A DNA stretch of 49,562 bases from an uncultured Ignavibacteriota bacterium (lineage in GTDB: Bacteria > Bacteroidota > Ignavibacteria > UBA10030 > UBA8401), in contig CAISDA010000057.1 in NCBI GenBank assembly GCA_903884005.1, positions 1 to 49,562 on the forward strand. Direction: 5' to 3'. The notes beneath the pieces were generated by a model, which did no database searches, was not told the DNA's origin, and saw nothing but the letters and a program-made list of their open reading frames with translations. A program made the translations under genes and the position numbers. Positions 9,384-30,085 of the stretch are shown here, one piece after another; positions within the stretch are counted from its first letter, which is position 1, and each line of letters starts with the position of its first letter.

Positions 9384-10661
9384 TCATCTCAGCAACACCA
9401 GTTTCTTCGTCTCCATGAAATTCCCTGTTTGAATCCTGTAGAAGTATACTCCGGCGGCACATCCTGAACCGTCAAATTTCGCTTCGTGGCGTCCCGCTTC
9501 CATTTCACCATTCACGAGAGTCGTTACACGCTGCCCGAGAGTGTTGAAGACGGAAAGCGTCACATGGCACCTGACGGGCAAGCCGTAGCGGATCGTGGTG
9601 CTCGGGTTGAAGGGATTAGGGTAATTCAGGTCCAAACTGTACGCACCAGGTATTCCGGATGGCACGCTCCCGACTGACACCAGTTTGCCCCACCCCCCGT
9701 TCGTTGTGTGGACGGCAACATCACGGTAGCCGACCGCCCACCCTTGCGACGTATCGATAAAGCAGACTGCCCATAGATCCATTAGCGTGTTGCTTATCTG
9801 TTGTGTCCAATTCGCGCCGCCATCTACTGTGCGGTAAATTTTTCCAAGTGATGCAACCAGTGTTCCCACTGCAGCATCCTTGAACGACATCCCGCGGACC
9901 GAGGCCGGGAGGCTGTGCACTGCCTTCCACGTCGCGCCACCATCGGTTGTTTTGTAAATGGAATCTGCAGCCGCATACCCGACGGCGACATTGGCGAAGG
10001 AGATCGCAGTCACCACGCGGTTTGTTGTTTGCAGCACCGTGTCCCAGGATGCTCCGTTGTTTGTGGTTCGGATGATGAGTCCCTTCTGCGTCGTCGGGTT
10101 ACCGCCACCGACGACCCATGCCGATGTGCCTGCAGGGGCGAGGCTGAAGTACGTGAGCGCGAAAGGACCATAGGTGGTAGGGGAGACAGGACTCCAGCTC
10201 GCGCCGCGGTCGAGTGAAAGCGAGATGGAGTTGTTCGCGCCGGCAGCAAGCCCTGTTGATCCGACGAACTCGACCGCCCAAAAAACGGAACCATACGAAT
10301 AGAGAGTATGGAGCGAGTCAAAAAGCCATGTTCGTCCTGCGTCAGTGGTTCGGAAGGATGAATTACCAACCCCCACCCATTCGAGATCAGTGAAGCAGTG
10401 GATGGCTGAAAAGCCCTCTTCCAGTCCATGCCAACCGATGGCACGTCCGAGCGCCTGCCAGCTCTTACCTCCGTCAGACGTCCTGAGGATTGTATCACCG
10501 ACAATAACTCCTGCGTTGGCACTCGTGAATTCCACTCCCGAAAGAATGCCGGTTATATTGCGCTTAAGCGTATCCACTTTCCAGCCCTGTTGTGCGCGCG
10601 ATTCAACGGCGACAAGCAGAGAAGACAAGAGCGCGATTGCAAAGAAGAAACGAATTCTCAT
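9384..10661 (-). CDS. Secreted Ycf48/BNR-type beta-propeller protein with T9SS sorting domain
   Basis: The start at 10661 has GGAGAG seven bases upstream and opens a signal peptide (MRIRFFFAIALLSSLLVAVESRAQ). The 425-residue protein contains about six repeats of the BNR/Asp-box kind: TSDGGKSW, TTDAGRTW, LDRGASW, TTNNGASW, TTDGGATW and TVDGGANW. They are spaced as in Ycf48-like or Vps10-like propellers. The last 85 residues are a T9SS domain starting at NYPNPFNPSTT and ending in a KKLVLLR tail. Such proteins are usually glycan-binding or scaffold proteins at the cell surface. A sialidase-type active site is not evident, so enzymatic activity is not claimed. A promoter and an adjacent palindrome lie upstream. 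Confidence 0.82.
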   Translation of the reverse strand: MRIRFFFAIALLSSLLVAVESRAQQGWKVDTLKRNITGILSGVEFTSANAGVIVGDTILRTSDGGKSWQALGRAIGWHGLEEGFSAIHCFTDLEWVGVGNSSFRTTDAGRTWLFDSLHTLYSYGSVFWAVEFVGSTGLAAGANNSISLSLDRGASWSPVSPTTYGPFALTYFSLAPAGTSAWVVGGGNPTTQKGLIIRTTNNGASWDTVLQTTNRVVTAISFANVAVGYAAADSIYKTTDGGATWKAVHSLPASVRGMSFKDAAVGTLVASLGKIYRTVDGGANWTQQISNTLMDLWAVCFIDTSQGWAVGYRDVAVHTTNGGWGKLVSVGSVPSGIPGAYSLDLNYPNPFNPSTTIRYGLPVRCHVTLSVFNTLGQRVTTLVNGEMEAGRHEAKFDGSGCAAGVYFYRIQTGNFMETKKLVLLR

Positions 10662-10739
10662 AGGAACTCTCCTTCCTTGGCTAGTGATCTCTTTCGGCGG
10701 ACAGAGTGAATGGCAGGCCCGAAATAACGGTTTCAATGG

Positions 10740-10785
10740 ATGGTACGACCTGTCATTCACATAGTCAAGTTAGATCTTTCTAACT
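10740..10785 (-). promoter_or_regulatory. Promoter TTGACT-17-TACCAT with an adjoining palindrome
   Basis: On the minus strand TTGACT (10763-10768) and TACCAT (10740-10745) are separated by 17 bases. Touching the -35 box is a perfect dyad, AGTTAGA-TCTT-TCTAACT, at 10768-10785. A symmetric site directly upstream of -35 is a plausible activator or repressor site. There is no T-run, so it is not an obvious terminator for the GH47 gene that ends at 10805. Confidence 0.5.
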
Positions 10786-10804: not shown

Positions 10805-12181
10805 TCACTGCCATGTTCTTCGGATTGGATGAGCTTCGGTATTGAAAATGGTGTTTCTGAAGTCCAGCGTTTCAGGCGGGGCAAACAATAGATAAAGGTA
10901 TTTCAAGGTTTCGGCGAGGAAGTAGCTTTCCATACGGTCGTTTTTTTCTTTGCTCACAACGTTCTTGAGTTCCGCATACCCATTGTCCGTTCTGCAGTAA
11001 CGCTTCAAATCTTCAAAGAACACCTTTCCCATTCTCTGGTAGCGCGGGTCTTTGGTGTATTGGTAGAGATAATAGGCCGACTCCATGATTTCCGGGTTGA
11101 GGAAAAATCGCCGCCACTTCGGATCGGCCGGTGCTTCCATCCGTACGTAGTCGAATTGTTCCGGCTCGATGCCGTACGTATTCCACATCGTGAAGCACGA
11201 TTCCTGCAAGCGTGCCGCGGTCTTCACATCGCCGGACAATGCGAGCACGGCCGGGAAGAATGCGTCGAGAGCACCGAACCATGTCTTTGTGCGTGTGCCG
11301 GTATTCATGTCTGCATGACCGTACCAGAGCCCCGACACGGTCTCGTGAGCGAGATACGTGTTGACGGCAACAATGCTCGAATCCCACATTCTGGCAAAAT
11401 CCTGGTCCCCAAAGAGGATCTTGCATTTCACCATGTACTCGTAATACGAATCGATACAAGCGCTCAGGTGACTGTCGGTATCCAGCCATTGTCCGGTCTC
11501 CGCATCGATCCATGTGCCGACTAGTCCGATGGACGACCGTCTGTTGTAGATCTGTTGAACCGCATTCTTGGCTGTGTTGTAGTATACCGGTTTTCCGGTA
11601 AGTTTGCTCAACGTGCCGAACTCAACGAGCAACGTACCAACCTCGCCTGGAGTCGTTCGGGTATTTCTCACAGCGCCGGTTTTCAGGTTCACATCGACAT
11701 AAGGAATTCCGGTCGGCGACTTAAATACCGGAAGGAGACGAGTTCCCAGATCGTCAGCCAGCTTCAACAGACGTTCGTCTCCCGTGAGTTGGTAGCTCGA
11801 GAGCAAGCCGCCAAGCATCCGGATCGTTATCTCAAAATTCTTCACGTAGATGTCGTGGTCGAAGGAAAGATGTGTGGCCAGAAATTCCCGCGTCGTGTCC
11901 GCCTCTTCTTTCAATCCCATCAGGATCATTGTGTCCAGCGCGTCGAGGATGGACATGTAGAGAGGCGCCGTGTACCAATCATAGTATGATGTGCTGAGCG
12001 GTTTGAGTCCATCGTGAGCCCATGCGTACTTCTTGTATGCTGTCCATGCGTGAAGGAATTCGTTCCGCACTTCTTGCGCAAGCTGAGCGCTGTGAACCGT
12101 CGACGTGTCTTCAATGGGGAGTCGTGGCGACGCCTGACCCAGGCTGCAGAGGAACGCGACCGCGATGAACATTCTGATCAT
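10805..12181 (-). CDS. Glycoside hydrolase family 47 (class I alpha-1,2-mannosidase), bacterial
   Basis: This 458-residue protein has a short signal peptide (MIRMFIAVAFLCSLGQA). The ATG at 12181 has GGAG six bases before it. The whole length matches the GH47 (alpha/alpha)7 barrel: DALDTMILMGL, ITIRMLGGLLSSYQLTGD, DSYYEYMVKCKILFGD, GALDAFFPAVLALSGD, DRMESYFLAETLKYLYLLF and the C-terminal FNTEAHPI. In characterised GH47 enzymes the Thr of NTEAHP binds the catalytic calcium, and carboxylates in the DSYYEY and RMES regions form the active site; all are present. GH47 is best known from eukaryotic N-glycan trimming in the ER and Golgi and is uncommon in bacteria, where the few known examples also trim alpha-1,2-mannose. 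It follows the esterase gene with a 96-base gap and probably shares its transcript. This suggests a role in degrading mannose-rich or partly acylated glycans. Confidence 0.9.
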   Translation of the reverse strand: MIRMFIAVAFLCSLGQASPRLPIEDTSTVHSAQLAQEVRNEFLHAWTAYKKYAWAHDGLKPLSTSYYDWYTAPLYMSILDALDTMILMGLKEEADTTREFLATHLSFDHDIYVKNFEITIRMLGGLLSSYQLTGDERLLKLADDLGTRLLPVFKSPTGIPYVDVNLKTGAVRNTRTTPGEVGTLLVEFGTLSKLTGKPVYYNTAKNAVQQIYNRRSSIGLVGTWIDAETGQWLDTDSHLSACIDSYYEYMVKCKILFGDQDFARMWDSSIVAVNTYLAHETVSGLWYGHADMNTGTRTKTWFGALDAFFPAVLALSGDVKTAARLQESCFTMWNTYGIEPEQFDYVRMEAPADPKWRRFFLNPEIMESAYYLYQYTKDPRYQRMGKVFFEDLKRYCRTDNGYAELKNVVSKEKNDRMESYFLAETLKYLYLLFAPPETLDFRNTIFNTEAHPIRRTWQ

Positions 12182-13304: not shown

Positions 13305-14972
13305 TCACTCAATGAGAAGTTTTCCTCTCGAAATAATTCTGTTTCTCTCCGTCAATTGATAGAAATACATTCCGCGGCAAAGATTGTCACGCGTAAGTTG
13401 AAATTCATTCGATCGTATCCCGCTGACAGTTTTCACAATTTGTCCAATGATGTTGTATATTTTAAATTGACCATCCTGTACTGCACTTCCTGGAACTCTG
13501 AGCCTTGCGCTTTTATTGAAGGGGTTCGGATAGATCGATATGTCATTGTGAGCGTCATCCCTGGACCTCTCCACCTCTGTCATCCCAAGTGTTCCCATCT
13601 TCATTCCATTGCCAAAGCTTGTAACCCACAGCTCGTTTTGATTATATGGATTGAAGAACACGCGTTCAGGCATGGAGAAAAGATAGCCGGCCACCTGTGA
13701 AAAGGCGGGAGTGCTGAAGTTGACATTGCTGCTCTTCCATAACCCCTGGGCCTCTGTTGCCACGTAGAGTTCCTCCTTGTTGACCGGACTGAAGGTGCAA
13801 GAATTGACCCTTGATAACAACGACCCGGTCACTCTGGTCCATGTCGCTCCCCTGTTACTGGTTTTATACAAACCTCCCAGTCCGTTCGGAGCGCCGCCCC
13901 AACCGCTATACACGCCTGCATACCATGTATTCTGACTGATGTCATAGGGGTCAACCACAATATCTCTCGTCCAGTATTTCATGCCATTATCAGTCACATC
14001 GGTCCAAGAGTTTCGCACAGGGTCATAAATGAAACACCCCGAGCTGGGAGTGAATGTCCCGCCGGCGTCCCTTCGTCCCGAATACGCGGCTACAAGCTTT
14101 CCATCGGTCAACACGGCCAGAGAGGCAGGATGTTTTTCAGTGCGCGGCGGATCAGGAAGCTGCGTCCAGACCGATGCTGAGAGAGCGCCGAGGTTATCAC
14201 AGCGGTATACTCCTCCTGCTCCTGCGCCTCCTCCGTAATGAACAACACTGGCATACGCGCGGTTTGTCGTGCCGGGATCGAGAGTGATCCAGAACACCGG
14301 ATGGTTGAACTGGTGAAGCACGCTCCATGTCAGCCCATTGTCAATGGAATAAGAGATCTTTCCCTGTGCGTCATTTGCATCGAGCAGTGCATCCTGCAGG
14401 TACGACGTTTGATAGATGTCGTGAATGTTGGACGTGGCCGCGTATAAGGTTCCGTTCGTTCCTTGTGCAGCATGGTAGGTTGTATTCACTGCGGCCGCTG
14501 AGAAGTTGAATGACCACGTTGTTCCCCCGTCGATGGAGCGGATCGCTCCGATATCCGTGTAACACGCCCACAGGGTCGTTGCATTGCACCACACGATCTG
14601 CCAGCAGGATGTATTTTCCATCCCATTGCTTCTGTAGTTTTGTTTCTTAGGCGTCGGTGCCTTCGCGCTATGCTGATAGGCGGCATCGGTATACGCCTGG
14701 TACCACGTCGCGCCTCCATCTTTTGTCGTGTGACAGAATCCGTAGTCGCCGAAAATCACCGTTTGAGAACTATTCCTGGCAACAGTGAAGCCCATCACGC
14801 ATTGTCCGTAACTCCATGGACTATCGCCCTGATATCCGCACCATCCCGTCACAACATTCTGATTATTGTTCGTGTTGAACACGTGCGTCCAGTTCCTGCC
14901 GGCATCGGTAGTTATCGTGATTTCATAATCTTTGAACCTCTTCCCACATCGATTTGTCCACCGGGATTCCAT
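13305..14972 (-). CDS. BNR/Asp-box propeller protein with T9SS domain, N-terminally truncated
   Basis: This frame contains repeats TTDAGRNW, TKDGGATW, SIDGGTTW, SIDNGLTW and TSNRGATW, and C-terminal half segments of the kind seen in sortilin-like or xyloglucanase-like propellers. It closes with a T9SS domain (ISIYPNPFNK ... GMYFYQL ... GKLLIE). It has no signal peptide. The first residues are encoded by bases that also encode the end of the Ldh_2 dehydrogenase upstream, and propeller-like sequence begins at about 14935. A T9SS cargo needs an N-terminal signal, so this is best read as a gene whose 5' part was deleted and whose remainder now sits behind another gene. The frame itself is otherwise intact over about 545 codons, so the loss may be recent or the protein may have been retained in a non-exported form. 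Confidence 0.7.
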   Translation of the reverse strand: MESRWTNRCGKRFKDYEITITTDAGRNWTHVFNTNNNQNVVTGWCGYQGDSPWSYGQCVMGFTVARNSSQTVIFGDYGFCHTTKDGGATWYQAYTDAAYQHSAKAPTPKKQNYRSNGMENTSCWQIVWCNATTLWACYTDIGAIRSIDGGTTWSFNFSAAAVNTTYHAAQGTNGTLYAATSNIHDIYQTSYLQDALLDANDAQGKISYSIDNGLTWSVLHQFNHPVFWITLDPGTTNRAYASVVHYGGGAGAGGVYRCDNLGALSASVWTQLPDPPRTEKHPASLAVLTDGKLVAAYSGRRDAGGTFTPSSGCFIYDPVRNSWTDVTDNGMKYWTRDIVVDPYDISQNTWYAGVYSGWGGAPNGLGGLYKTSNRGATWTRVTGSLLSRVNSCTFSPVNKEELYVATEAQGLWKSSNVNFSTPAFSQVAGYLFSMPERVFFNPYNQNELWVTSFGNGMKMGTLGMTEVERSRDDAHNDISIYPNPFNKSARLRVPGSAVQDGQFKIYNIIGQIVKTVSGIRSNEFQLTRDNLCRGMYFYQLTERNRIISRGKLLIE

Positions 14973-16300: not shown

Positions 16301-16429
16301 ATGGTCGCCTAACGATGTATTGCTGACTGCCATCGAAACGATCGCATTCGATAACTATTGGCCAGCCTGATACGAGCAACTGCATAATTCCCACTTCTTT
16401 CGGTGAAACTTAACGTAATAGAGCATCAT

Positions 16430-18211
16430 ATGGCAACGCACAATAAAAACAATCAAGGCCTGATCGTGATAGATGACCCGAGGTCGTTGTCCTTGCCGAC
16501 CACACGGAGCATTCGGCGCTTCGACGCATTGAAACAGCTGATCGCAGTATCCGTTTTCGTTGCCGCATGTTTCCTGATCCCAACCAGCGGATTCTCGCAA
16601 TCGATCGTCCCCCCCGCAGTTCGGTTGGATGGCACTGCGTGGACGCAGAATCTCAGCGTGTACGAAGTCAATGTGCGTCAATACACGAAGGCAGGCACCT
16701 TTGCCGCCTTCGGCGCACATCTCGACCGGCTCAGGGATCTTGGCGTCGGTATTCTGTGGTTTATGCCCATCCATCCCATTGGCATCAAAAATCATCTCGG
16801 CAGCCTTGGAAGTTATTACTCCGTAAAAAATTATTATGGCATCAATCCGGAATTTGGCACGCTGGCAGATTTTAAGGCACTCGTCGATTCGGTACATAAA
16901 AAAGGAATGTTCGTGCTCATGGATTGGGTGGCGAATCATACGTCGTGGGACAATGATCTCACGCTGACGCATCCGGAATATTATCAAAAAAGCACTTCGG
17001 GTGCATTCATCGCGCCCCCTGGCACCGGTTGGTCCGATGTGATACAGCTCGATTACAGCAAAGCGGAATTGCGGACCTATATGATCGGTGCGATGAAGTA
17101 CTGGATCACCGAGGCCAATGTAGACGGCTTTCGCTGCGATGCGGCGAGCATGGTGCCCATCGATTTTTGGGCTGCGGCTACAGCCGAATTAAAAAAAACT
17201 AAACCCGGGATCTTAATGATCGCCGAAGATCAGGCCGTGAAATATTACCCTGCAGGATTTGACGGCACCTATGCATGGAGTTATTATGGATTTGGAAGCG
17301 GGGTGCTGATTCAACTGGCGAAGGGTGCGAACAATGCAAACAATTTTGACGCATTTGTGGTGAATGAAAACAGCCAGTATCCGGGTAACAATCACAGATT
17401 ATATTTCACCTCTAACCATGACGAAAATTCATGGTATGGCACCGACACTGAATTATTCGGGAAAGCAGCGGAATCCTTCCTCGCTCTCTCTCTCGTATTC
17501 AGAAGCATCCCGTTGATCTACAGCGGCCAGGAAGCCGGGTTGAACCATCGGCTGCTCTTCTTCGACAAGGACGAAATTGTGTGGCAGTCATCTCCTCGTG
17601 CAAAAGTCTATTCGACCCTGCTGCATTTAAAAAGCAGGAATAGCGCATTATGGAACGGAACTTCCGGAGGCAATCCGTACCGCATAGCAACGACAAACGA
17701 TGTGAATGTCTACGCCTTCGAGCGTCGAAACGGCATCGAAAAAGTGTGGGGCGTGTTCAATCTTTCATCGGCCGGACAAACGTTCAGGTTCGCAGACACC
17801 ACATATCCAGGCGTGTATCGCGACGTATTTACTGATTCAACGTTTTCGTTCTCACACCCCTATCAAATGACGCTGCCGGCCTGGGGATACAAAGTGTTAG
17901 AGTATAGTCAAACGCTCAGTACGGCTCCCGGCGAAGGCCTCGTGCCAACGATGTATCAATTTTTTCAAAATTACCCCAATCCTTTTAACCCCTCAACCAC
18001 GATTCGGTACGGACTTTCCCATACCTCGATTGTCCGGTTGTCAGTGTTCAACACAGTAGGCCAACAGGTCGCAGTCCTTCAGAATGGTGAGCAAAAAGCA
18101 GGGTATCATGAGGTCATACTGAACGGGGATGGCCTGTCCAGCGGAGTATATTTTTACAGGATACAAGCAGGAGAATTTGTGCAGACCAGGAAATTGCTGC
18201 TGTTGCGTTGA
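16430..18211 (+). CDS. Secreted alpha-amylase family enzyme (GH13) with T9SS sorting domain
   Basis: An ATG at 16430 is preferred over an in-frame GTG at 16403. Both give a long charged N-region before the hydrophobic segment LIAVSVFVAACFLI, so the true start is uncertain. The protein is a GH13 TIM barrel: YEVNVRQYT, GILWFMPIHPIG, VLMDWVANHTSWDN, VDGFRCDAAS (nucleophile D237), LMIAEDQ (acid/base E266) and YFTSNHDENSW (D331). All three catalytic carboxylates are present. A small beta domain follows the barrel, and the last 85 residues are a T9SS domain (NYPNPFNPSTT ... KLLLLR). It is therefore an extracellular or surface alpha-glucan hydrolase, for example a maltogenic or alpha-amylase type; specificity is not decided. 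Just after its stop lies a patch of gene debris. Confidence 0.88.
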   Translation: MATHNKNNQGLIVIDDPRSLSLPTTRSIRRFDALKQLIAVSVFVAACFLIPTSGFSQSIVPPAVRLDGTAWTQNLSVYEVNVRQYTKAGTFAAFGAHLDRLRDLGVGILWFMPIHPIGIKNHLGSLGSYYSVKNYYGINPEFGTLADFKALVDSVHKKGMFVLMDWVANHTSWDNDLTLTHPEYYQKSTSGAFIAPPGTGWSDVIQLDYSKAELRTYMIGAMKYWITEANVDGFRCDAASMVPIDFWAAATAELKKTKPGILMIAEDQAVKYYPAGFDGTYAWSYYGFGSGVLIQLAKGANNANNFDAFVVNENSQYPGNNHRLYFTSNHDENSWYGTDTELFGKAAESFLALSLVFRSIPLIYSGQEAGLNHRLLFFDKDEIVWQSSPRAKVYSTLLHLKSRNSALWNGTSGGNPYRIATTNDVNVYAFERRNGIEKVWGVFNLSSAGQTFRFADTTYPGVYRDVFTDSTFSFSHPYQMTLPAWGYKVLEYSQTLSTAPGEGLVPTMYQFFQNYPNPFNPSTTIRYGLSHTSIVRLSVFNTVGQQVAVLQNGEQKAGYHEVILNGDGLSSGVYFYRIQAGEFVQTRKLLLLR

Positions 18212-18817: not shown

Positions 18818-20974
18818 CTACTTCACATTTTTTTCCAGCGCTTCTTTCACCCGTGCGGGTGTGATGGGCAGTTGGAATACGCGCGCGCCGACGGCATCGT
18901 ACACGGCGTTCGCGATGACCGCCCCCATGAGTATGATTGCAGGTTCGCCTCCGCCTTGCGGCGGCGCTTCATTATCGGTCACGAACGCCGTTTCGATTGT
19001 GGGAAGCCAGGAGAAGCGCGGGATGTCGTACGTATCGAAATTTTCCTCCATGATCTCTCCGCCTTTGAAGCGAACATGTTCCGATAATGCGTATCCCAAC
19101 CCCATCGTAATGCAGCCTTCCATCTGTATCGTCGCGCCTTCGGGATTCACAACGAGGCCCATGTCCTGAACGCAGACAACGCGCTTCACGCGCACAGTGC
19201 CTGTGGACGCGTCGACCTCGACCTCGGCGATGGCTGCCACAGGAGTACCGGCATCGATGCCGCAGGCGACACCAATGCCGCGCTTGCTCGGAGCTTTCGC
19301 CGCAACCCATCCAAATTTTTCAGCCGCCAGTGTCAAGACGTCCCGCATTTTCTTATCGGTCATATTCTGCAGACGGAATTCGATGGGGTCCACGCCCGCC
19401 TTCGACGCCATGATATCGATCTGTGATTCGCGCGCGAATGTATTCGTGTTGTTGCCCGGCGCCCGCCATGCCCCCGTGGCGAACGGATGTGGGCCCTCTG
19501 CCCCGTTCACACTTGCATCAAACGCCGTCGTGACAGCGTTGGGTATGGTGTAAAAATGCGCCGCGCCCCGGTCCCCGGCAAAGTAGACATTGTACTCCCA
19601 CGCGCTCATTTTTCCGAGCGCATCGATGCCCGATGTGATGGTGACGACCGCCGCAGGCCTGAACGCATCGAAGAAAAATTCTTCCTTCCGCGTGTATGCC
19701 ACCTGCACAGGCTTGCCAGAGAGTTGTGCAAGACGCGCCGCTTCCGCCGCCTGCAGGTTTCGCGTCTTCCCGCCGAACCCTCCGCCGACATACGGAGTGA
19801 TGACGCGGACATTCTCCGAACTGAAACCGAGCTCGTGCGCGATCTCTTCCTTGCACGTAAATGGGTTTTGCGTCGACGCCCAAACAGTGGCTTTGCCGTT
19901 TTCGATCACAGCGAGCGCGGCATGAGGTTCCATTGCCGCATGCGCCTTATATCCGTCGAGGAACGTCGAAGTGACGATGGCGGCAGATTCCGCCTTCCCT
20001 TTGTTGATGTCGCCCTGTTGCGCGACAATTTTTCCCCCGGCAGCGGCCTTCAAGAGATGGTCGAAAACCGTGTTGTCGTCGAAGGCGGTCGGTGGAGTCT
20101 CATAGCGCGCTTTGATCTTCGAAAGCGCATACTCCGCCATGTCGGGAAGCCGATGGAGCGCCGCGACAAGCGTGCCCTCGTGAATGATGACGACATCCTT
20201 CACGAGTTTCGCCTCGGCGATGTCAACATCGACGAGCTTCGATGCGTGAGACGGCGGACGCAGAATTTTTGCATACAGCATGCCGGGAAGGCGCATGTCG
20301 GCGGCGTACACCGTCTTGCCTGTCACCTTCTCCCGGCCATCCCGGCGCAGATGGGACGTGTTCATGATCCTGAACTCTGAAAATTTCTTGACGACGGCCT
20401 TTCCGGTCGCATGCCGCTCGATCGACCTTCCGTGCGCCAGCTCTCCGTACGACACCCGATGCTGCGGATGGTCTTTTTCGAAGACGATGCCATTCTCGAC
20501 TGCGAGATTCGCTGCCGGCACCGAGAGGTGTTCCGAGGCCAATTCAAGGAGCACCAACCGGGCCTCTGCTCCGGCGGCGCGGAGCGCGGGACTGAATGAG
20601 CGGGTTGAGAGCGAACCGAATGTCCCCCTGTCCCACGGACAGAGATCGGTATCACCCATGACCATATCGATCGACTCGAGGGCGGTGTCGAGTTCATCGG
20701 CGAGCATTTGGGCTAGCGATGTGACGATGCCTTGTCCCATTTCTATCTTGCCGACATAACACGCGATGCGGCCGTTTTCGGTGATCCTCAGGAATGCATT
20801 GAAGTCCGTCGGGAGAGCTCGAGCCTGCCGCTGCTGGGCGATCGCAGGCAGTTCGCCGATCGTAAAAAAGAGGACGATGCCTCCGCCCGCAAGCTTTAAG
20901 AAGTCCCGGCGGTCGATCTCGAACGTTTCGCGAAGAGCCGCGGCTTCAGCGTCGATGTGATGATGCTTCCTCAT
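18818..20974 (-). CDS. Molybdenum hydroxylase large subunit (xanthine dehydrogenase family), Tat-exported
   Basis: This 718-residue protein begins with a twin-arginine-type leader (IDRRDFLKLAGGG) followed by a hydrophobic segment, so the enzyme is probably exported folded to the periplasm. Molybdopterin-binding motifs are present in order: GKIEMGQGIVTSLAQMLADE, GTFGSLSTRS, the VTGKTVYAADMRLPGMLYAKI hinge, YVGGGFGGKTRN, GAWRAPGNNT and the C-terminal GGGEPA with catalytic Glu677. The layout (leader, large subunit without FAD domain, separate small Fe-S subunit) is that of IorB / isoquinoline 1-oxidoreductase or periplasmic aldehyde oxidoreductases. It oxidises an aldehyde or N-heterocycle and passes electrons through the Fe-S subunit, usually to a cytochrome. 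Its start lies one base after the stop of the Fe-S gene, so translation is coupled. No FAD subunit and no cofactor-insertion chaperone are visible in the window. Confidence 0.9.
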   Translation of the reverse strand: MRKHHHIDAEAAALRETFEIDRRDFLKLAGGGIVLFFTIGELPAIAQQRQARALPTDFNAFLRITENGRIACYVGKIEMGQGIVTSLAQMLADELDTALESIDMVMGDTDLCPWDRGTFGSLSTRSFSPALRAAGAEARLVLLELASEHLSVPAANLAVENGIVFEKDHPQHRVSYGELAHGRSIERHATGKAVVKKFSEFRIMNTSHLRRDGREKVTGKTVYAADMRLPGMLYAKILRPPSHASKLVDVDIAEAKLVKDVVIIHEGTLVAALHRLPDMAEYALSKIKARYETPPTAFDDNTVFDHLLKAAAGGKIVAQQGDINKGKAESAAIVTSTFLDGYKAHAAMEPHAALAVIENGKATVWASTQNPFTCKEEIAHELGFSSENVRVITPYVGGGFGGKTRNLQAAEAARLAQLSGKPVQVAYTRKEEFFFDAFRPAAVVTITSGIDALGKMSAWEYNVYFAGDRGAAHFYTIPNAVTTAFDASVNGAEGPHPFATGAWRAPGNNTNTFARESQIDIMASKAGVDPIEFRLQNMTDKKMRDVLTLAAEKFGWVAAKAPSKRGIGVACGIDAGTPVAAIAEVEVDASTGTVRVKRVVCVQDMGLVVNPEGATIQMEGCITMGLGYALSEHVRFKGGEIMEENFDTYDIPRFSWLPTIETAFVTDNEAPPQGGGEPAIILMGAVIANAVYDAVGARVFQLPITPARVKEALEKNVK

Positions 20975-20975
20975 G

Positions 20976-21452
20976 TCAGAATCCCCCTTCCATTTCCTTC
21001 GCTGCTGTCGCGACGGCTTCGATGATCCGCTTATGGGCGCCGCACCGACAGAGATTGTTTTCCATTCCCATGGTGATCTCCCCGCGTGAAGGATGCGGAT
21101 GGTGGGAAAGGAATCCTGCCGCTGTCATGATCATTCCCGGCGTGCAGTATCCGCACTGGAGCGCATCATGCGCCATGAACGCTTGCTGCACAGGATGCAG
21201 CACCTCGCCCTTCGCCAACCCTTCGATCGTTGTCACATGCTTGCCGCCGACGCTCTTCATCGGCGTCTGGCATGAGCGGACCGCTTCTCCGTCGATGAGC
21301 ACGGTGCATGACCCGCACAACCCTTCACCGCATCCGTATTTCGTGCCGGTGAGTTCGAGATCGGTCCGCAGCACCCACAGCAACATCCGATCGTTGTCAA
21401 CATGAAGACTGACGGCTTTTCCATTGAGAGTGAATTGCACGGTTTCATCCAT
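20976..21452 (-). CDS. (2Fe-2S)-binding small subunit of the molybdenum hydroxylase
   Basis: The ATG at 21452, with GGGGGAG upstream, gives the normal 158-residue length; longer in-frame starts are unlikely. The N-terminal plant-ferredoxin-type cluster is held by C41, C46, C49 (CGEGLCGSC) and C61. The C-terminal helical domain cluster is held by C100, C103 (QCGYC) and C135, C137 (LCRC), the standard pattern of CoxS/IorA-type subunits. It has no signal of its own and would be carried out by hitch-hiking on the Tat leader of the large subunit. It is transcribed first in a two-gene operon from a consensus promoter about 80 bases upstream. Confidence 0.92.
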   Translation of the reverse strand: MDETVQFTLNGKAVSLHVDNDRMLLWVLRTDLELTGTKYGCGEGLCGSCTVLIDGEAVRSCQTPMKSVGGKHVTTIEGLAKGEVLHPVQQAFMAHDALQCGYCTPGMIMTAAGFLSHHPHPSRGEITMGMENNLCRCGAHKRIIEAVATAAKEMEGGF

Positions 21453-21533
21453 ATATGGCTCCCCCGGCTGCGGCCGATTGATAGGAAAGGTGATGCGAGT
21501 TGTTGCTGCTCGTTCTCTTCGCACAGACATTGC

Positions 21534-21562
21534 AATATCGCTTTCAACAGAAACGATAGCAA
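21534..21562 (-). promoter_or_regulatory. Promoter of the molybdenum hydroxylase operon (TTGCTA-17-GATATT)
   Basis: On the minus strand TTGCTA (21557-21562), 17 bases ending in GTTGAAAGC, then GATATT (21534-21539). It combines the -35 form seen at 16102 with the -10 form seen at 5612, which ties the two promoter subtypes together. Confidence 0.55.
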
Positions 21563-21728
21563 GCAATATCCGAAAATTCTTTCCCAAAAATATATACCGC
21601 TCCGCGAACAATTGCATTTGTTTATTACAACCATGAGCGATACATTATAATAGTATCGATAAAGAGTCGGAAACACAGGGTGCGTTGACATTCGGAAATA
21701 ATGAACCATGCCGGCAGCCGGCAATTTT

Positions 21729-21771: not shown

Positions 21772-22767
21772 GTGAACCGTACAATTGCATTTGCCGCTCT
21801 TTGCCTCATTACCTGCCAGATAGCCGAAGGCCAGCAGGAAACCATGTACATGTCGGTGCTCAATTCGCGCAAGCACCGGTTGAATGCGAGCGACAATCCG
21901 CAAGTCGGGCTGTTCGTCAGCACGGATAGAGGACAAACGTGGACCCACCGCGGCTGGCGGGAATATACACGGATGTTCTATACGGAGGCCGGTCCCGATG
22001 GAACGCTCTGGTCCGCGTGCGGCAATGGCGTCATGCGCTCCACTGATGGAGCGCAGAGTTGGAAAATTGTCACCGACTGGCACGTCACTGAAGTCCTGAA
22101 GGTGAAGGTGGATCCTTCACACCCCGGGACGGTCTTTGCAGCAACGGCATACGGGATCATCAAGAGCTCGGATCATGGCGACACCTGGGCTGCGCACAAT
22201 ACCGGGCTTCGCCATCCGTTCACCGCCGACGTGCTTGTGGACCGGACAAATAGCCGGAAGATCTTTGCGGCCACCGAGGACGGAATCTTCCAGAGCGTTG
22301 ACGCTGGGAATACATGGAGCCTGGCGGGATTGAACGGGAAGGGTGTGCGAACGATCGTGCAGGATCCGGTGCACGGAACAACCTTGTGGGCCGGGACGGA
22401 GGACGACGGCGTGTTTCTCTCAACAGACGGCGGCACGAGCTGGATGCAGAGGATCTCGGGATTGTCTCACAAGACCGTCTACGCAGTCCTGATAGACCCG
22501 AAAAATCCGGATCGGATATTTCTCGGCACACACGGAGGAGGCGTCTACGCTTCGGCAGATGGAGGGGCGCAATGGGTACAGCGGAGCGACGGGTTGACAT
22601 TGCCGGTCATCCACACACTGGCAATGGTCGCTGGAAATCCGGAGACAATTTTTGCCGGGTCGCTGAACGGGGGGCTTTTTCAGAGCACCGATGGCGGAGT
22701 GCATTGGACATTCAACAGTCAGGAAGAAGCCCAGGTCTGGGGCCTGACGGTGGGTCCGAAGCGGTGA
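21772..22767 (+). CDS. Secreted BNR/Ycf48-like beta-propeller protein
   Basis: This 331-residue protein starts at a GTG. No ATG is available: an in-frame stop lies 15 bases upstream, and the next codons form the signal peptide (NRTIAFAALCLITCQIAEG). Seven Asp-box-like repeats can be counted: STDRGQTW, STDGAQSW, SSDHGDTW, SVDAGNTW, STDGGTSW, SADGGAQW and STDGGVHW. They are spaced about 42-45 residues apart as in a seven-bladed propeller. Each blade also carries a VDP-HPGTVFAAT-like strand, as in Vps10/sortilin-type bacterial propellers. There is no T9SS tail, unlike the other two propeller proteins in the window, so this one should be periplasmic or lipid-free secreted. No Shine-Dalgarno sequence is visible. 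A glycan-binding or structural role is inferred. Confidence 0.8.
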   Translation: MNRTIAFAALCLITCQIAEGQQETMYMSVLNSRKHRLNASDNPQVGLFVSTDRGQTWTHRGWREYTRMFYTEAGPDGTLWSACGNGVMRSTDGAQSWKIVTDWHVTEVLKVKVDPSHPGTVFAATAYGIIKSSDHGDTWAAHNTGLRHPFTADVLVDRTNSRKIFAATEDGIFQSVDAGNTWSLAGLNGKGVRTIVQDPVHGTTLWAGTEDDGVFLSTDGGTSWMQRISGLSHKTVYAVLIDPKNPDRIFLGTHGGGVYASADGGAQWVQRSDGLTLPVIHTLAMVAGNPETIFAGSLNGGLFQSTDGGVHWTFNSQEEAQVWGLTVGPKR

Positions 22768-22886: not shown

Positions 22887-24671
22887 ATGAACATTCCACA
22901 ACGCATCGTTTTTTTTGTGCTGAATCTGTTGAGCATAGTCTCGGGAGTGATCGCTCAACCAGGGTTCGAAGAACGCAGAACCCGACTGCTTACCGTAGCG
23001 GGTGCTGAAAACGAAAAAAGTTTTTATGCCGCGCTGGCCAAACTGCGGCTTGGCAAGGATACCGCGCGCGCCTTTGTGATGCTGGATTCGCTCACAGCCG
23101 ACAACGCCATGGGAGGCATGTTTTATTCGTATACGCTCATCGGGACGTATCTCTATACGCGCCACCTCCTGCCCGATTCACTGCAGCACAAGATCCGTAA
23201 TGCGTACAACAACAGAACCATGTACCGCGGCGATACGGAGAACCACTGGGTCATGTACTACACCGGCCTCTACCTCGCATCGCAAACATGGCCTGGCGAG
23301 GACGGCAGCCGCTGGTTCAACGGGAAAAGTTCGGACGAGAACTTCCGCGAAGCGAAAGGATGGCTCGAGCAGTGGATGCACATCACCAGTACGATCGGAC
23401 AAGGAGAGTTCGATTCCCCCACGTACAGCACCGTCTTCATCACTCCCATGTTGGTCATGTATGAATTTGCCGCCGACCCGGTCATGAAACGCCGTGCCCA
23501 GATGATGCTCGACTTGCTCTTCGTGGACTTTGCCGCCGAAGAACTCGGCGGCAACTACGGAGGCGGCCATAGCCGCGACTACCCCGAGGATATCATCAAC
23601 CCGCTTTCGGCTCCGATCACGCGCTTTTCCTGGCTCTACTTCGGCCAGCCGGACATCGAGCGGTGGGACGAAGCGCGCCTGCGCCCGCGCAACCGTGGGT
23701 CGTGGGAAACCGTCTTCGCGGCTCTCAGTTCGTACAGGCTTTCGGATATCATCTACCACATCGGCACCGACCGGTCCGTTCCGTATGTCCATACCGAAAC
23801 GAAGCGTGTCCGAAATGAGATCCGCTTCAGCGACCAACTCAATCCTCCGGTGTACAAATACACGTACATGACGCCCGACTACGTCATCGGGTCACTGCAA
23901 GGGGGGATTCTCCAACCGATCCAGCAACATACCTGGAGTGCCATATGGCTTTCTAGTAAACCCAACAACACGCTGTTCACGCTTCATCCGTCATACTCCG
24001 GGAAGGAGCTCGCCATGTTCTTTCCGGAAGACCAAAAATTTCTCGCAGAAGAGGTGGACCGTTATCATCTCGTGTACACAAACCCGGACAAGTGGAACTC
24101 CAGCTCTCCGTATGAACAGACGTTTCAGCACAAGGATGCGTTGATCGTCCTTTACAACATCGACGAAAACGCAAAGCATCAGCACATCGATGGATTTTTT
24201 CCAAAAAGCCTGGACCAGCGAATCATTGATTCCACCGGTTGGATCTTCTGTCGGGCGGGTCGAACGTACATCGCCTTTTATCCATTGAAGCCGTACTCGT
24301 GGATCGAGGAGGATGTGAACTGGCGCTTGCGAAGCGCGGAGCGGAAAAACGGCGCCGTGGTGCAGATGGGAGCGGAACGGATCTATGGCTCGTTCGAGAA
24401 TTTCACGACGGCCATACGAAAGACGCACGTGAACAAAAACAACTTTGACCAGAATCTCACAATCGAATACAGATCGCCGGCTGGTGATACAATGAAATTC
24501 ACGTATGGCGGGGACCGGATCATCAACGGGAAGGCGGTAAATTTCAACGACTACGGCCTGTTCAACGGACCATTCGTCAAGGCCGCCGTGGGAACGGGCG
24601 TCATCACGCTTCAGTACAAAGAACAGCAACGGATACTGGACTTCAACAAGGCAACGATCACAGATCGATGA
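22887..24671 (+). CDS. Secreted protein of unknown function, probable alpha/alpha-toroid
   Basis: This 594-residue protein has a signal peptide (MNIPQRIVFFVLNLLSIVSGVIAQ). I do not recognise a named family. Residues about 60-330 are helix-rich, with aromatic and acidic motifs: ENHWVMYYTGLYLASQTWPGE, IGQGEFDSPTY and GGGHSRDYPED. These resemble the (alpha/alpha) barrel of alginate lyase, heparinase-like and GH88-type enzymes. The C-terminal half (about 340-594) is rich in beta-strand patterns, as in the sandwich that follows the toroid in several polysaccharide lyases. Conserved-looking Asn-His, Tyr and His residues (ENHW, SPTY, HSRDY, KHQHIDG) are candidates for a lyase active site. This is inference from pattern only. 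It lies 120 bases after the propeller gene on the same strand and could share its transcript; a weak TTGACG-17-ACAGTT pair lies in the gap. Confidence 0.55.
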   Translation: MNIPQRIVFFVLNLLSIVSGVIAQPGFEERRTRLLTVAGAENEKSFYAALAKLRLGKDTARAFVMLDSLTADNAMGGMFYSYTLIGTYLYTRHLLPDSLQHKIRNAYNNRTMYRGDTENHWVMYYTGLYLASQTWPGEDGSRWFNGKSSDENFREAKGWLEQWMHITSTIGQGEFDSPTYSTVFITPMLVMYEFAADPVMKRRAQMMLDLLFVDFAAEELGGNYGGGHSRDYPEDIINPLSAPITRFSWLYFGQPDIERWDEARLRPRNRGSWETVFAALSSYRLSDIIYHIGTDRSVPYVHTETKRVRNEIRFSDQLNPPVYKYTYMTPDYVIGSLQGGILQPIQQHTWSAIWLSSKPNNTLFTLHPSYSGKELAMFFPEDQKFLAEEVDRYHLVYTNPDKWNSSSPYEQTFQHKDALIVLYNIDENAKHQHIDGFFPKSLDQRIIDSTGWIFCRAGRTYIAFYPLKPYSWIEEDVNWRLRSAERKNGAVVQMGAERIYGSFENFTTAIRKTHVNKNNFDQNLTIEYRSPAGDTMKFTYGGDRIINGKAVNFNDYGLFNGPFVKAAVGTGVITLQYKEQQRILDFNKATITDR

Positions 24672-27438: not shown

Positions 27439-29976
27439 TTACGTATAGGCAAGTTTCAACGTGAGCTTTGAACCTCCCTTTACTCTGTATTTTGTGATTC
27501 CCTTGCCGGTTTTTTCGACTACCGTCAGCCCGATGTTTTCCCTGCTATCCAGCCATAACTCTACTTCACACTCATGTGGCACGTTGAGAAAAATAGTCCG
27601 GCTTCCCTTCACACCTTTTGATGTGAATGTTACCGCTCCTGCAAGTGTTTGAATGTCGACATCAATAAGACGAAGATCACCGGGTTGAGGAAATATTCTG
27701 TATTTTTTCCCGCCGGGCGATAACGGCTTCGCTCCAGCCAGTCCCTGATAGAGCAGCACAATCGGTGCTACGGCACAATGGCTCCACTGCGAACTGCCGT
27801 CGTACCCTGCATTCCAGTCTTCCTGCAATGTTGTATTTTCCCAGACAGAAGGCATGTTACCCCACTTGTTCCTCAGATCGGACAGCAGTGTTTCCACCTC
27901 ACCGTTTTCAGCCAGGGCCCAATAGCGCCATACCGCATTGCAGGGATACGAAACGCCCATTGACGCTGGAAATGTTTTCAGTATCTCGACAGATTTTTTT
28001 TCATCATTCCCCGGACATTGATGAAACAGCAAGGCGGTTGCCAGCGCCCTGTCGCTGTAGCGCACCTCTTTTTCTTCCTCCATCCATGGTTTATTGTCGA
28101 TAAATATTTTTTCTTCATTGCTCCAATATTTCGCAACACAGTGTGAAAGGATGTTCTCTGAAAATATTTTTGCCTGCTTTGCCGTTTCAGTATCTCCAAA
28201 TACTTTACTGAGCTCGTACAGAGAATATCCGGTCATTGCCGATACATACAGATTGAAGGACAATTGCTTGTGCTTCTGTTGTTTAAAGGCGATGTGGTCC
28301 ATCCACACACATGTTACGCCAAGATCTTCAACTTTAAGAAGTCCGTCTTTCTGGTCAACCATCGATTGAAGGAACCGGAAAAATTTCACAATGCGAGGGT
28401 ACGCTTCTTGCAGCGGCGTTCGATCGCCGGTGTAGAGGTAGTAATTATATGAATCCATGCAAAATCCAACGCCGTGATCCACAATTGATCCCCAATAGCC
28501 CCAGTTAATCGAACGCTGCTGAAGGCGTGCCAGACGGTCATACGCAGGCCAGGAATCCAAAAAATACCCGTCCACAGTAATGCCCTGACTGAATGTGGAA
28601 ACGAAGCGGGCGGGCAGGCGGGCTTCGCCAAATGCCTGATAGAGCGGGTGCAACTGGTGCGAACCGTCTCCGCTATATTGCTGTCGTTCGCGCGCCATTC
28701 CGTCTACGATAATATCCTGGGCTGAATTGTAGAGAGTGTTCACCGAAGCATCCATCACCTTTTGAATAACTGTATCGGAAATTACGATCCGCGGCTCCAG
28801 TGTATAATCGAACTGCCTTCTCAGAAGGCCTATCTTAGAAATGGTAACGGGGCGATTAAAGTTATGAACGTGAAGCTGCACCCACCGAAAACTTTCAAAG
28901 TCAAACGGGGAAAAAGTGTTCATTCCTTCCTTGCAGATAAACCTGGACCATGAATTAAAGTGCGTGTTGATCAGCACATCGCCGCCCGGTTTGTGAGCTT
29001 CATGCACCAGCATTTCGATCACCGTTCCTTCTGGCGCGTCAATGGTAAAATAAGGCCAGCCAACAGACTGACGATTAAATTCAAACGTAAGTGCAGCCGC
29101 CTTGCCGCCATTTGGAGCGATGGTGAGTGTTGTATTTTTAAATTCGGGCAATGGTACGATCGGGGAAGCAGCAAAAGCGTGCGGCACCTTCATATCGAAG
29201 TAGTTTTCGCACGGCATCTTCCAGTCGATCCAGTATGCTTCGGTGAGTTGCTTTACAGCCACATTGTTTTCCTTCATCAGCGGGATGGACCTTTCGCGGA
29301 GCTGCGAATCCACATTCCCCGAAATATCAAGCTGGTAGTTTGAATTACCGTTTGATCCCGATGATTTACCGGCTTTTCCGGACAGTTCTTGAGCAAAGAT
29401 CCACTCGCCCGTTTCGGTAAAGTTGGCGGTATCCCATCCGTACGGAAAAATCCGTGCATCAAAATTTTCCTGCAGGGCCCTCAGGTACCAGCGCTTGTAC
29501 TGCCCCGGATTCCAGCTCCGGGCTAAAAATGATTTCCAGGAACCGTCTGTAATTATTTCTTTCCCGTCGATAGTAATGTTCATCAAAAATCCGGGCATGC
29601 CGAGGGGACTTGTGCCATCACCCGTCCCATAGTACAGCACCTGGCAGCCGATCACATTTTTCCCGCGCTTAAGATACCTGCTGATATCAACCGGATCGGC
29701 CTCCTGCCATCGCGGATCGAAGGGAGCCGGCCCCCATTGAACCCGCTGCCCGTTCACAAACAACTGATAGCGGCTGTCTGCGATCACCCATCCCTTTGCA
29801 CTCACCAGATCCTTGTCTAGAGTAATCTCTTTGCGAAAAAGAATAAATGTATTCTGCAACGTTCGTTCCGACGGATACCAAATCCATTTGGCGGGAGAAA
29901 GGTCCAGGCCGGCGGCATCAAGACGACACCCCACAATAACCTGAATAAGAAGTAACAATAGTCCGGTCTTTTTCAT
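27439..29976 (-). CDS. GH78-type alpha-L-rhamnosidase-like lipoprotein
   Basis: The start is set at the ATG at 29976, which begins MKKTGLLLLLIQVIVGC. The IVGC motif is a lipobox, so the 845-residue protein is probably a lipoprotein. It has no good Shine-Dalgarno sequence; the region before the ATG is A-rich. The architecture follows GH78: sandwich with RYQLFVNGQRVQWGP and KNVIGCQVLYYG, a second sandwich with ENFDARIFPYGW, an (alpha/alpha) barrel with DIIVDGMARERQQYSGDG (the equivalent of the catalytic DCPxRE region), SWPAYDRLARLQQRSINWG, and a C-terminal sandwich. It differs clearly from the GH78 at 5761 and belongs to another subgroup, so specificity may differ. A divergent gap of 258 bases separates it from the DUF2961 gene. 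Confidence 0.82.
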   Translation of the reverse strand: MKKTGLLLLLIQVIVGCRLDAAGLDLSPAKWIWYPSERTLQNTFILFRKEITLDKDLVSAKGWVIADSRYQLFVNGQRVQWGPAPFDPRWQEADPVDISRYLKRGKNVIGCQVLYYGTGDGTSPLGMPGFLMNITIDGKEIITDGSWKSFLARSWNPGQYKRWYLRALQENFDARIFPYGWDTANFTETGEWIFAQELSGKAGKSSGSNGNSNYQLDISGNVDSQLRERSIPLMKENNVAVKQLTEAYWIDWKMPCENYFDMKVPHAFAASPIVPLPEFKNTTLTIAPNGGKAAALTFEFNRQSVGWPYFTIDAPEGTVIEMLVHEAHKPGGDVLINTHFNSWSRFICKEGMNTFSPFDFESFRWVQLHVHNFNRPVTISKIGLLRRQFDYTLEPRIVISDTVIQKVMDASVNTLYNSAQDIIVDGMARERQQYSGDGSHQLHPLYQAFGEARLPARFVSTFSQGITVDGYFLDSWPAYDRLARLQQRSINWGYWGSIVDHGVGFCMDSYNYYLYTGDRTPLQEAYPRIVKFFRFLQSMVDQKDGLLKVEDLGVTCVWMDHIAFKQQKHKQLSFNLYVSAMTGYSLYELSKVFGDTETAKQAKIFSENILSHCVAKYWSNEEKIFIDNKPWMEEEKEVRYSDRALATALLFHQCPGNDEKKSVEILKTFPASMGVSYPCNAVWRYWALAENGEVETLLSDLRNKWGNMPSVWENTTLQEDWNAGYDGSSQWSHCAVAPIVLLYQGLAGAKPLSPGGKKYRIFPQPGDLRLIDVDIQTLAGAVTFTSKGVKGSRTIFLNVPHECEVELWLDSRENIGLTVVEKTGKGITKYRVKGGSKLTLKLAYT

Positions 29977-30085
29977 ATTTTTAGTGTGGACGGTTGAATG
30001 GAACTGATAGGCAATTTGATTGAACATTCAAGCATGGAAGGCGTGAGGAACACAAGACTCGCCCGGGCATGCTCTGCCAGTGCGT

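Follow-up and report, generated by a model that had tools for sequence, protein, structure and literature searches.

A candidate toroid polysaccharide lyase and its conserved Asp-box propeller neighbour, encoded by an uncultured Ignavibacteriota bacterium

In characterised toroid polysaccharide lyases an asparagine and a tyrosine neutralise the substrate carboxylate and act as acid or acid/base, the PL8 lyases also have a toroid arginine, and the GH88 unsaturated glucuronyl hydrolases consume lyase products. Those parts of PMC12088678, PMC12915356 and PMC11848413 that treat the active sites place the neutralising Asn 53–63 residues before the Tyr in families PL8, PL12, PL15, PL17, PL23, PL33, PL35, PL39 and PL40; the pairs given there are N187/Y241 and N192/Y246 in PL35, N240/Y294 in PL12, N336/Y390 in a PL15 exoheparinase, N201/Y258 in PL17, N186/Y239 in PL39, N183/Y242 in PL8 and N236/Y299 in PL23 (all PMC12088678), N238/Y291 in PL33 (PMC11848413) and N245/Y305 in PL40 (PMC12915356).

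The window analysed here, the whole stretch of 49,562 nucleotides from an uncultured Ignavibacteriota bacterium, includes an ATG-initiated open reading frame of 594 codons, in which a first-pass annotation had noted the motifs ENHW, SPTY and HSRDY; frame and motifs are all present, the latter at residues 118–121, 177–180 and 228–232, and the first ~24 residues resemble a signal peptide by eye.

22887–24671, + strand: candidate toroid polysaccharide lyase, apparently secreted (open reading frame, AlphaFold2 model, 74 related loci)

The frame is not a chance one, as there are 74 related loci and a second copy, 46% identical, elsewhere in the window's genome. This second copy is truncated by the end of its contig (C35 of the window's genome, G000). 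The same region has short tail matches at the ends of contigs C24 and C22, which looks as though a repeat had interrupted the assembly there.

Judged by its sequence, the putative enzyme belongs to a widespread bacterial family that is unnamed in the libraries searched (Pfam and NCBIfam). The record titles of the 74 loci assign them to Ignavibacteria and other Bacteroidota, candidate division KSB1, one Deferribacteres record, Acidobacteria (Bryobacterales and Solibacteraceae) and many Opitutae. Near the window's genome the distribution is patchy: the enzyme is present in 5 of 41 genomes in the relatives search and in 11 of 395 in a phylum-wide search (own genome counted in both), and three of those 11 have distant members only. 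A profile search of genomes of the window's phylum gave three distant proteins (L087–L089), and tblastn gave 13 plasmid records, 20–28% identical, in Rhizobiaceae, Thioclava, Streptomyces and the archaeon Haladaptatus; the former three and seven of the 13 make up the set of ten distant relatives used below. Those on plasmids that are annotated at the match are called "hypothetical protein", and the nine that were scanned (all but L099) have no significant Pfam match over the aligned part. We note that in L089 (3–6999, − strand) the distant relative is flanked on either side by a further large gene of lyase-like appearance by eye, and that one flanking gene has an HQHAD stretch and no significant Pfam match.

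The earlier statement that the protein fits no family holds for Pfam and NCBIfam, both for the window protein and for 57 relatives (from 57 of the 74 loci) that together form our 58-member alignment. The window protein has no Pfam match at E ≤ 1, and the best E-values among the 58 members are 0.054 (Pfam) and 0.013 (NCBIfam), to unrelated small families, none of them credible; Hepar_II_III_C, DUF4962 and GH88 (PF07470) have no match at E ≤ 1 in any member. A PDB sequence search found no lyase chain at E ≤ 10, and hhalign against a Hepar_II_III cluster present in seven of the related loci (set A3, 7 sequences) gave a probability of 0.2%. Membership of the heparinase II/III group was rejected on these Pfam, PDB and hhalign results, and no sequence or profile link connects the family to known lyases.

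AlphaFold2, run with the 58-row alignment, gives a confident model (pLDDT 90.2, pTM 0.91) that bears out the helical first half and β-rich second half predicted from the sequence, with a toroid present and the following domain limits.

22965–23768, + strand: α toroid domain, residues 27–294 (DSSP on the model)
23784–24665, + strand: β-sandwich domain, residues 300–593 (DSSP on the model)

The model and the fold searches agree on the two-domain architecture of toroid plus β-sandwich lyases, and the best matches are polysaccharide lyases. Of the two outcomes named beforehand as counting against the earlier proposal, a model that lacks a toroid and a strong match to a family of non-enzymes, neither was obtained. 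Foldseek against the PDB returned 49 matches at E ≤ 1e-3, namely 48 chains of toroid lyases that act on chondroitin, hyaluronan, heparin or heparan sulfate, alginate and xanthan, and one epimerase, human dermatan sulfate epimerase 1; the top VIA-align match is GAGase VII (Z 11.8, rmsd 6.1, 401 aligned, model residues 22–538). This predicted fold class is well supported; close kinship to one family is not, because Foldseek TM-scores to the best matches are mostly 0.3–0.45 with high rmsd, terpene synthases score up to Z 10.1 on just the toroid, and VIA-align itself warns that helical models often reach Z-scores of such size. Fold matches that span both domains are lyases or the epimerase. Thus of the architecture that had been likened to both polysaccharide lyases and glucuronyl hydrolases the lyase part stands, and the hydrolase part is weaker, since the GH88 chain covers the toroid only and PF07470 is unmatched. 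The one viral protein that Foldseek matched at E ≤ 1e-3 is uncharacterised and comes from Tomelloso virus; an ODV-E66 is below that threshold (rank 4, E 5.7e-3).

The residues that are invariant in all 58 members include E118, N119, H120, E174, Y180, R230, K402, E410 and Q414; W121 is present in 57 and H228 in 44. The positions of most interest are these:

23238–23249, + strand: ENHW, with Asn119 and His120 as predicted carboxylate neutralisers at a helix start (conservation, spacing to Tyr180)
23415–23426, + strand: SPTY, with Tyr180 as predicted catalytic tyrosine (58 of 58 members, 10 of 10 distant relatives)
23568–23582, + strand: HSRDY, with R230 as predicted substrate or catalytic arginine (58 of 58 members, 10 of 10 distant relatives)
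23928–23930, + strand: His348, candidate counterpart of the β-domain His of known lyases (His in 50 of 58)
24075–24077, + strand: Tyr397, candidate for a second active-site Tyr, located in the loop that follows the fifth β strand (58 of 58; DSSP)

Toroid helices start at residues 118 and 182 by DSSP, so that N119 and Y180 lie at or just before a helix start, and the two are 61 residues apart in every member, which is the order and approximate spacing (a neutralising Asn, often with a His, then a Tyr ~53–63 residues on) of the known enzymes. E174, like Y180 and R230, is kept in all ten distant relatives, and E-N-H in eight (not in L088, and not aligned in L089). E118-N119-H120, E174, Y180 and R230 are therefore predicted to be the toroid residues expected of such lyases, a mapping made by order, spacing and conservation.

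The β domain is different. Among the 58 members it has no invariant His, and the HxHxD-type metal motif of known relatives, the site typical of heparinase II/III-type enzymes (PL15, 17, 21, 35, 39 and 40), is absent; in the set A3 comparison H423-E-H425-A-D427 is invariant. The nearest His to the missing motif is H348, which is Q in seven members and R in one. These eight are in L054, L055, L060, L061, L063, L064, L068 and L070, and in all eight loci the propeller gene (see below) is downstream of that enzyme copy and not upstream, suggesting that they form a separate clade with an enzyme-then-propeller order.

The PL35 GAGases (GAGase VII, 8khw; GAGase II, 8khv) have, as here, an α toroid plus antiparallel β sandwich and a loop Tyr that follows the first five strands, and in the cited passages their toroid Asn and Tyr are 54 apart rather than 61; the window family differs from them in having no sequence match, no HxHxD-type motif and a propeller partner of its own. 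Families PL12, PL15, PL17, PL21, PL33, PL39 and PL40 have the fold in common with the window protein and, as far as those passages give the sites, an Asn and/or His followed by a Tyr 53–60 residues on (60 for N245–Y305 of PL40), but they lack a sequence match to it, and the β-domain His is not strictly conserved here. The PL8 chondroitin, hyaluronan and xanthan lyases match in fold and likewise carry Asn, His, Tyr and Arg all on the toroid; from the residues listed for 1RWA the Asn-to-Tyr distance is 59 (N183, Y242) and the His is 9 residues before the Tyr, whereas in the window family it directly follows the Asn, and again there is no sequence match. Dermatan sulfate epimerase 1 (6hzn) has the fold and a toroid His/Tyr pair in common with the window protein, which has no DUF4962 match and no invariant counterpart of the epimerase's β-domain metal-ligand His.

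Directly upstream of the enzyme gene, on the same strand and 119 nt away, is the propeller gene that had been put forward as encoding a possible binding partner.

21772–22767, + strand: Asp-box β-propeller partner, 331 aa, with seven Asp-box-like repeats by eye (PF15902, neighbourhood)

Its assignment as a BNR/sortilin-like Asp-box propeller follows from the repeats and from Pfam matches above cut-off (PF15902, 59.3 bits, cut-off 33; PF02012, 28.2 bits, cut-off 27). Asp boxes and, as judged from the L014 fusion, the fold are common to this protein, GH74 enzymes, sortilin and Ycf48; unlike those, it is a single small seven-repeat propeller tied to one enzyme family. Profile searches over 76 sequences (the 74 loci, L002 and the window), in which enzyme copies or pieces were counted above 300 bits and a pair was defined as same strand and within 700 nt, show the propeller to be a conserved neighbour: 99 of 108 enzyme copies or pieces are paired (65 with a propeller upstream only, 15 downstream only and 19 on both sides), 71 of the 76 sources hold at least one pair, and 101 of 104 propellers are beside an enzyme. 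Of the nine unpaired copies, three are fragments of one broken gene of L067, another three (L023, L073 and L076) have a contig end within 30 nt downstream, two (L021 and L022) have a propeller 1.3–1.4 kb upstream, and L019 has none within 2.1 kb upstream or 1.3 kb downstream. In the window's genome the top three of 44 propeller-like matches (461, 405 and 262 bits) lie at the two enzyme copies, and the next has 94.5 bits.

Two loci have natural fusions in opposite orders, propeller-enzyme in L014 and enzyme-propeller in L017, and no second signal peptide was seen at either junction. Long open frames in G068 and G131 were considered as further fusions and rejected, their propellers being in other frames. 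A mirror-tree comparison of 92 pairs gives a correlation of r 0.923 between enzyme and propeller distances (at most 0.123 after shuffling), which co-inherited genes would be expected to show. Between 23 multi-copy loci, the copy types of enzyme and propeller match in 144 of 253 comparisons; at 144 to 109, a propeller does not keep strictly to a single type of enzyme. Searches of open-licence PMC literature gave no paper on a lyase-propeller pairing of this kind, and it would be unusual for a lyase to have a propeller as its fixed partner.

The propeller could itself be a glycosidase of GH74 or sialidase type that shares a pathway with the enzyme and no joint machine, a reading compatible with a lyase next door that we consider rather unlikely. 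Its nearest solved relatives by sequence are the putative BNR glycosyl hydrolase 3b7f, GH74 enzymes and Ycf48 (by fold, in a search with the L014 fusion model, it also resembles sortilin), and the NCBIfam glycosylhydrolase model NF045728 gives 128.8 bits, though below its cut-off of 175. The L014 fusion model, made with unpaired rows, folds both domains (mean pLDDT 86.6) and has a pTM of 0.64, which gives no confident domain interface. Against a glycosidase, the invariant or near-invariant propeller columns in 28 sequences are mostly the Gly, Trp, Ser and Asp of the Asp boxes, other conserved polar columns being T106, E107 and T209, and a joint role is favoured by the fusions in both orders and by the adjacency of 101 of 104 propellers to an enzyme.

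That the enzyme lies among glycan enzymes is only loosely true, since the closest other Pfam-annotated genes in the window are a molybdopterin/Fe-S dehydrogenase pair and a DUF4153 gene, and GH78 (27439–30027), DUF2961, GH13, GH47 and a second GH78 are further off. The dehydrogenase pair (18818–21617, − strand) encodes xanthine-dehydrogenase-type molybdopterin-binding and 2Fe-2S subunits and is divergent from the propeller gene. The GH47 α-mannosidase match (10805–12181, − strand) is full-length (E 4.9e-122), in a family best known from eukaryotes. Three proteins (9384–10760, 13305–14972 and 16403–18211) have type IX secretion sorting tails (Por_Secre_tail); two have BNR/Asp-box matches, in one case below Pfam cut-offs, and one is GH13.

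Among the 74 core loci, 15 tblastn queries (one per gene type, E ≤ 1e-10) found a class-V PLP enzyme in 34, a protein that we take to be RidA-like in 35, DUF6807 in 29, GH78 in 27, an M28 peptidase in 20, GH127, GH38 and a PfkB kinase in 11 each and GH51 in 9. At this threshold the window was matched by none of the 15, though its GH78 gene at 27439–30027 fell into the GH78 group of the loci when proteins were clustered by blastp at 1e-8. GH78, DUF6807, PLP class-V enzyme, RidA-like protein, propeller, lyase and M28 recur together in L078 (2755–9037) and related Opitutae loci, where the PLP enzyme has a TAT-like leader by eye and the secreted RidA-like protein is on the opposite strand (L078, 4164–4697). 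A second unnamed family is represented by a 795-aa protein directly upstream of the propeller-lyase pair in L006 (2577–4961), which has no Pfam or NCBIfam match at the thresholds used and has relatives in 10 of the 74 loci. Our guess is that the substrate is a glycan of plants or algae that contains rhamnose, arabinose and uronic acid.

A GH88 gene is directly downstream of the enzyme in five of the ten distant relatives, Thioclava (by annotation and Pfam) and four Rhizobiaceae (by 53–69% identity to the Thioclava protein); all five are from Alphaproteobacteria and may thus go back to only a few independent events. A tblastn search with the Thioclava GH88 as the one query (E ≤ 1e-4) gave no match in the window or in any of the 74 core loci. 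A GH88-family match is lacking in 19 of 38 genomes that hold the core family (38 of the 74 loci were covered, and many of the genomes are drafts), and the window's own genome has two strong matches and a weaker one on other contigs. GH88 was therefore rejected as an obligate companion of the core family.

The absence of GH88 from half of these 38 genomes would suit a glycoside hydrolase built on the same α-toroid plus β-sandwich scaffold, as would the GH94 (Z 10.2) and GH88 (Z 9.8) chains among the VIA-align matches, the GH78, GH38, GH127 and GH51 genes of the core loci and the invariant acids E118, E174 and E410. We regard this as unlikely: the GH94 and GH88 matches cover model residues 22–285 only, lyases and one epimerase make up the 49 best Foldseek matches, and no GH family of Pfam is matched at E ≤ 1 by any of the 58 members. 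It is quite improbable that the protein is a non-catalytic glycan-binding or scaffold protein that keeps a lyase fold, with the propeller as co-scaffold; the missing β-domain metal motif and the variable H348 are in keeping with such a role, but the presumed active-site residues of the toroid are invariant in all 58 members and kept in 8–10 of the ten distant relatives. A polymer-level uronate C5-epimerase resembling dermatan sulfate epimerase 1, with which it would share the fold and a Tyr/His site (His205 and Tyr261, 56 apart, in the part of PMC8006597 that describes them; 6hzn is second by Foldseek and third by VIA-align), is highly improbable for an apparently exported protein of bacterial loci with glycan-degrading genes, five of whose distant relatives adjoin GH88, a consumer of lyase products.

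The protein is thus probably an exported toroid polysaccharide lyase of an unnamed family that acts on a uronate-containing glycan and has a dedicated Asp-box propeller subunit. As a lyase, it would bind the glycan in the cleft between the α toroid and the β sandwich, with the uronate carboxylate held by Asn119 and His120, the acid or acid/base role at C5 and the glycosidic oxygen taken by Tyr180, and the acidic chain bound by R230 together with other invariant basic residues; β-elimination would then cut the chain to leave a 4,5-unsaturated uronide. The propeller would belong to this machine as a subunit of its own, with a dedicated role in binding or structure. A more specific form of this proposal, which we put forward tentatively and with some doubt, is a two-subunit, metal-free lyase in which the toroid residues alone catalyse and an obligate propeller feeds or orients the acidic chain.

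The fold and the likely chemistry are already known; the sequence family has no name in Pfam or NCBIfam, is without the metal motif and keeps a conserved propeller partner, and searches of open-licence PMC literature gave no paper recognisable as describing the enzyme family. The family is a concrete and testable candidate for a new family of polysaccharide lyases. If the two-subunit proposal is true, the lyase family would be a new one, its distant relatives spread over several bacterial phyla and one archaeal genus, and its bond with the partner close enough for fusions to have arisen in either order. The record titles of all 74 related loci begin with "MAG", and so the family may represent uronate-glycan breakdown in taxa that are uncultured, among Bacteroidota, KSB1, Acidobacteria and Verrucomicrobia.
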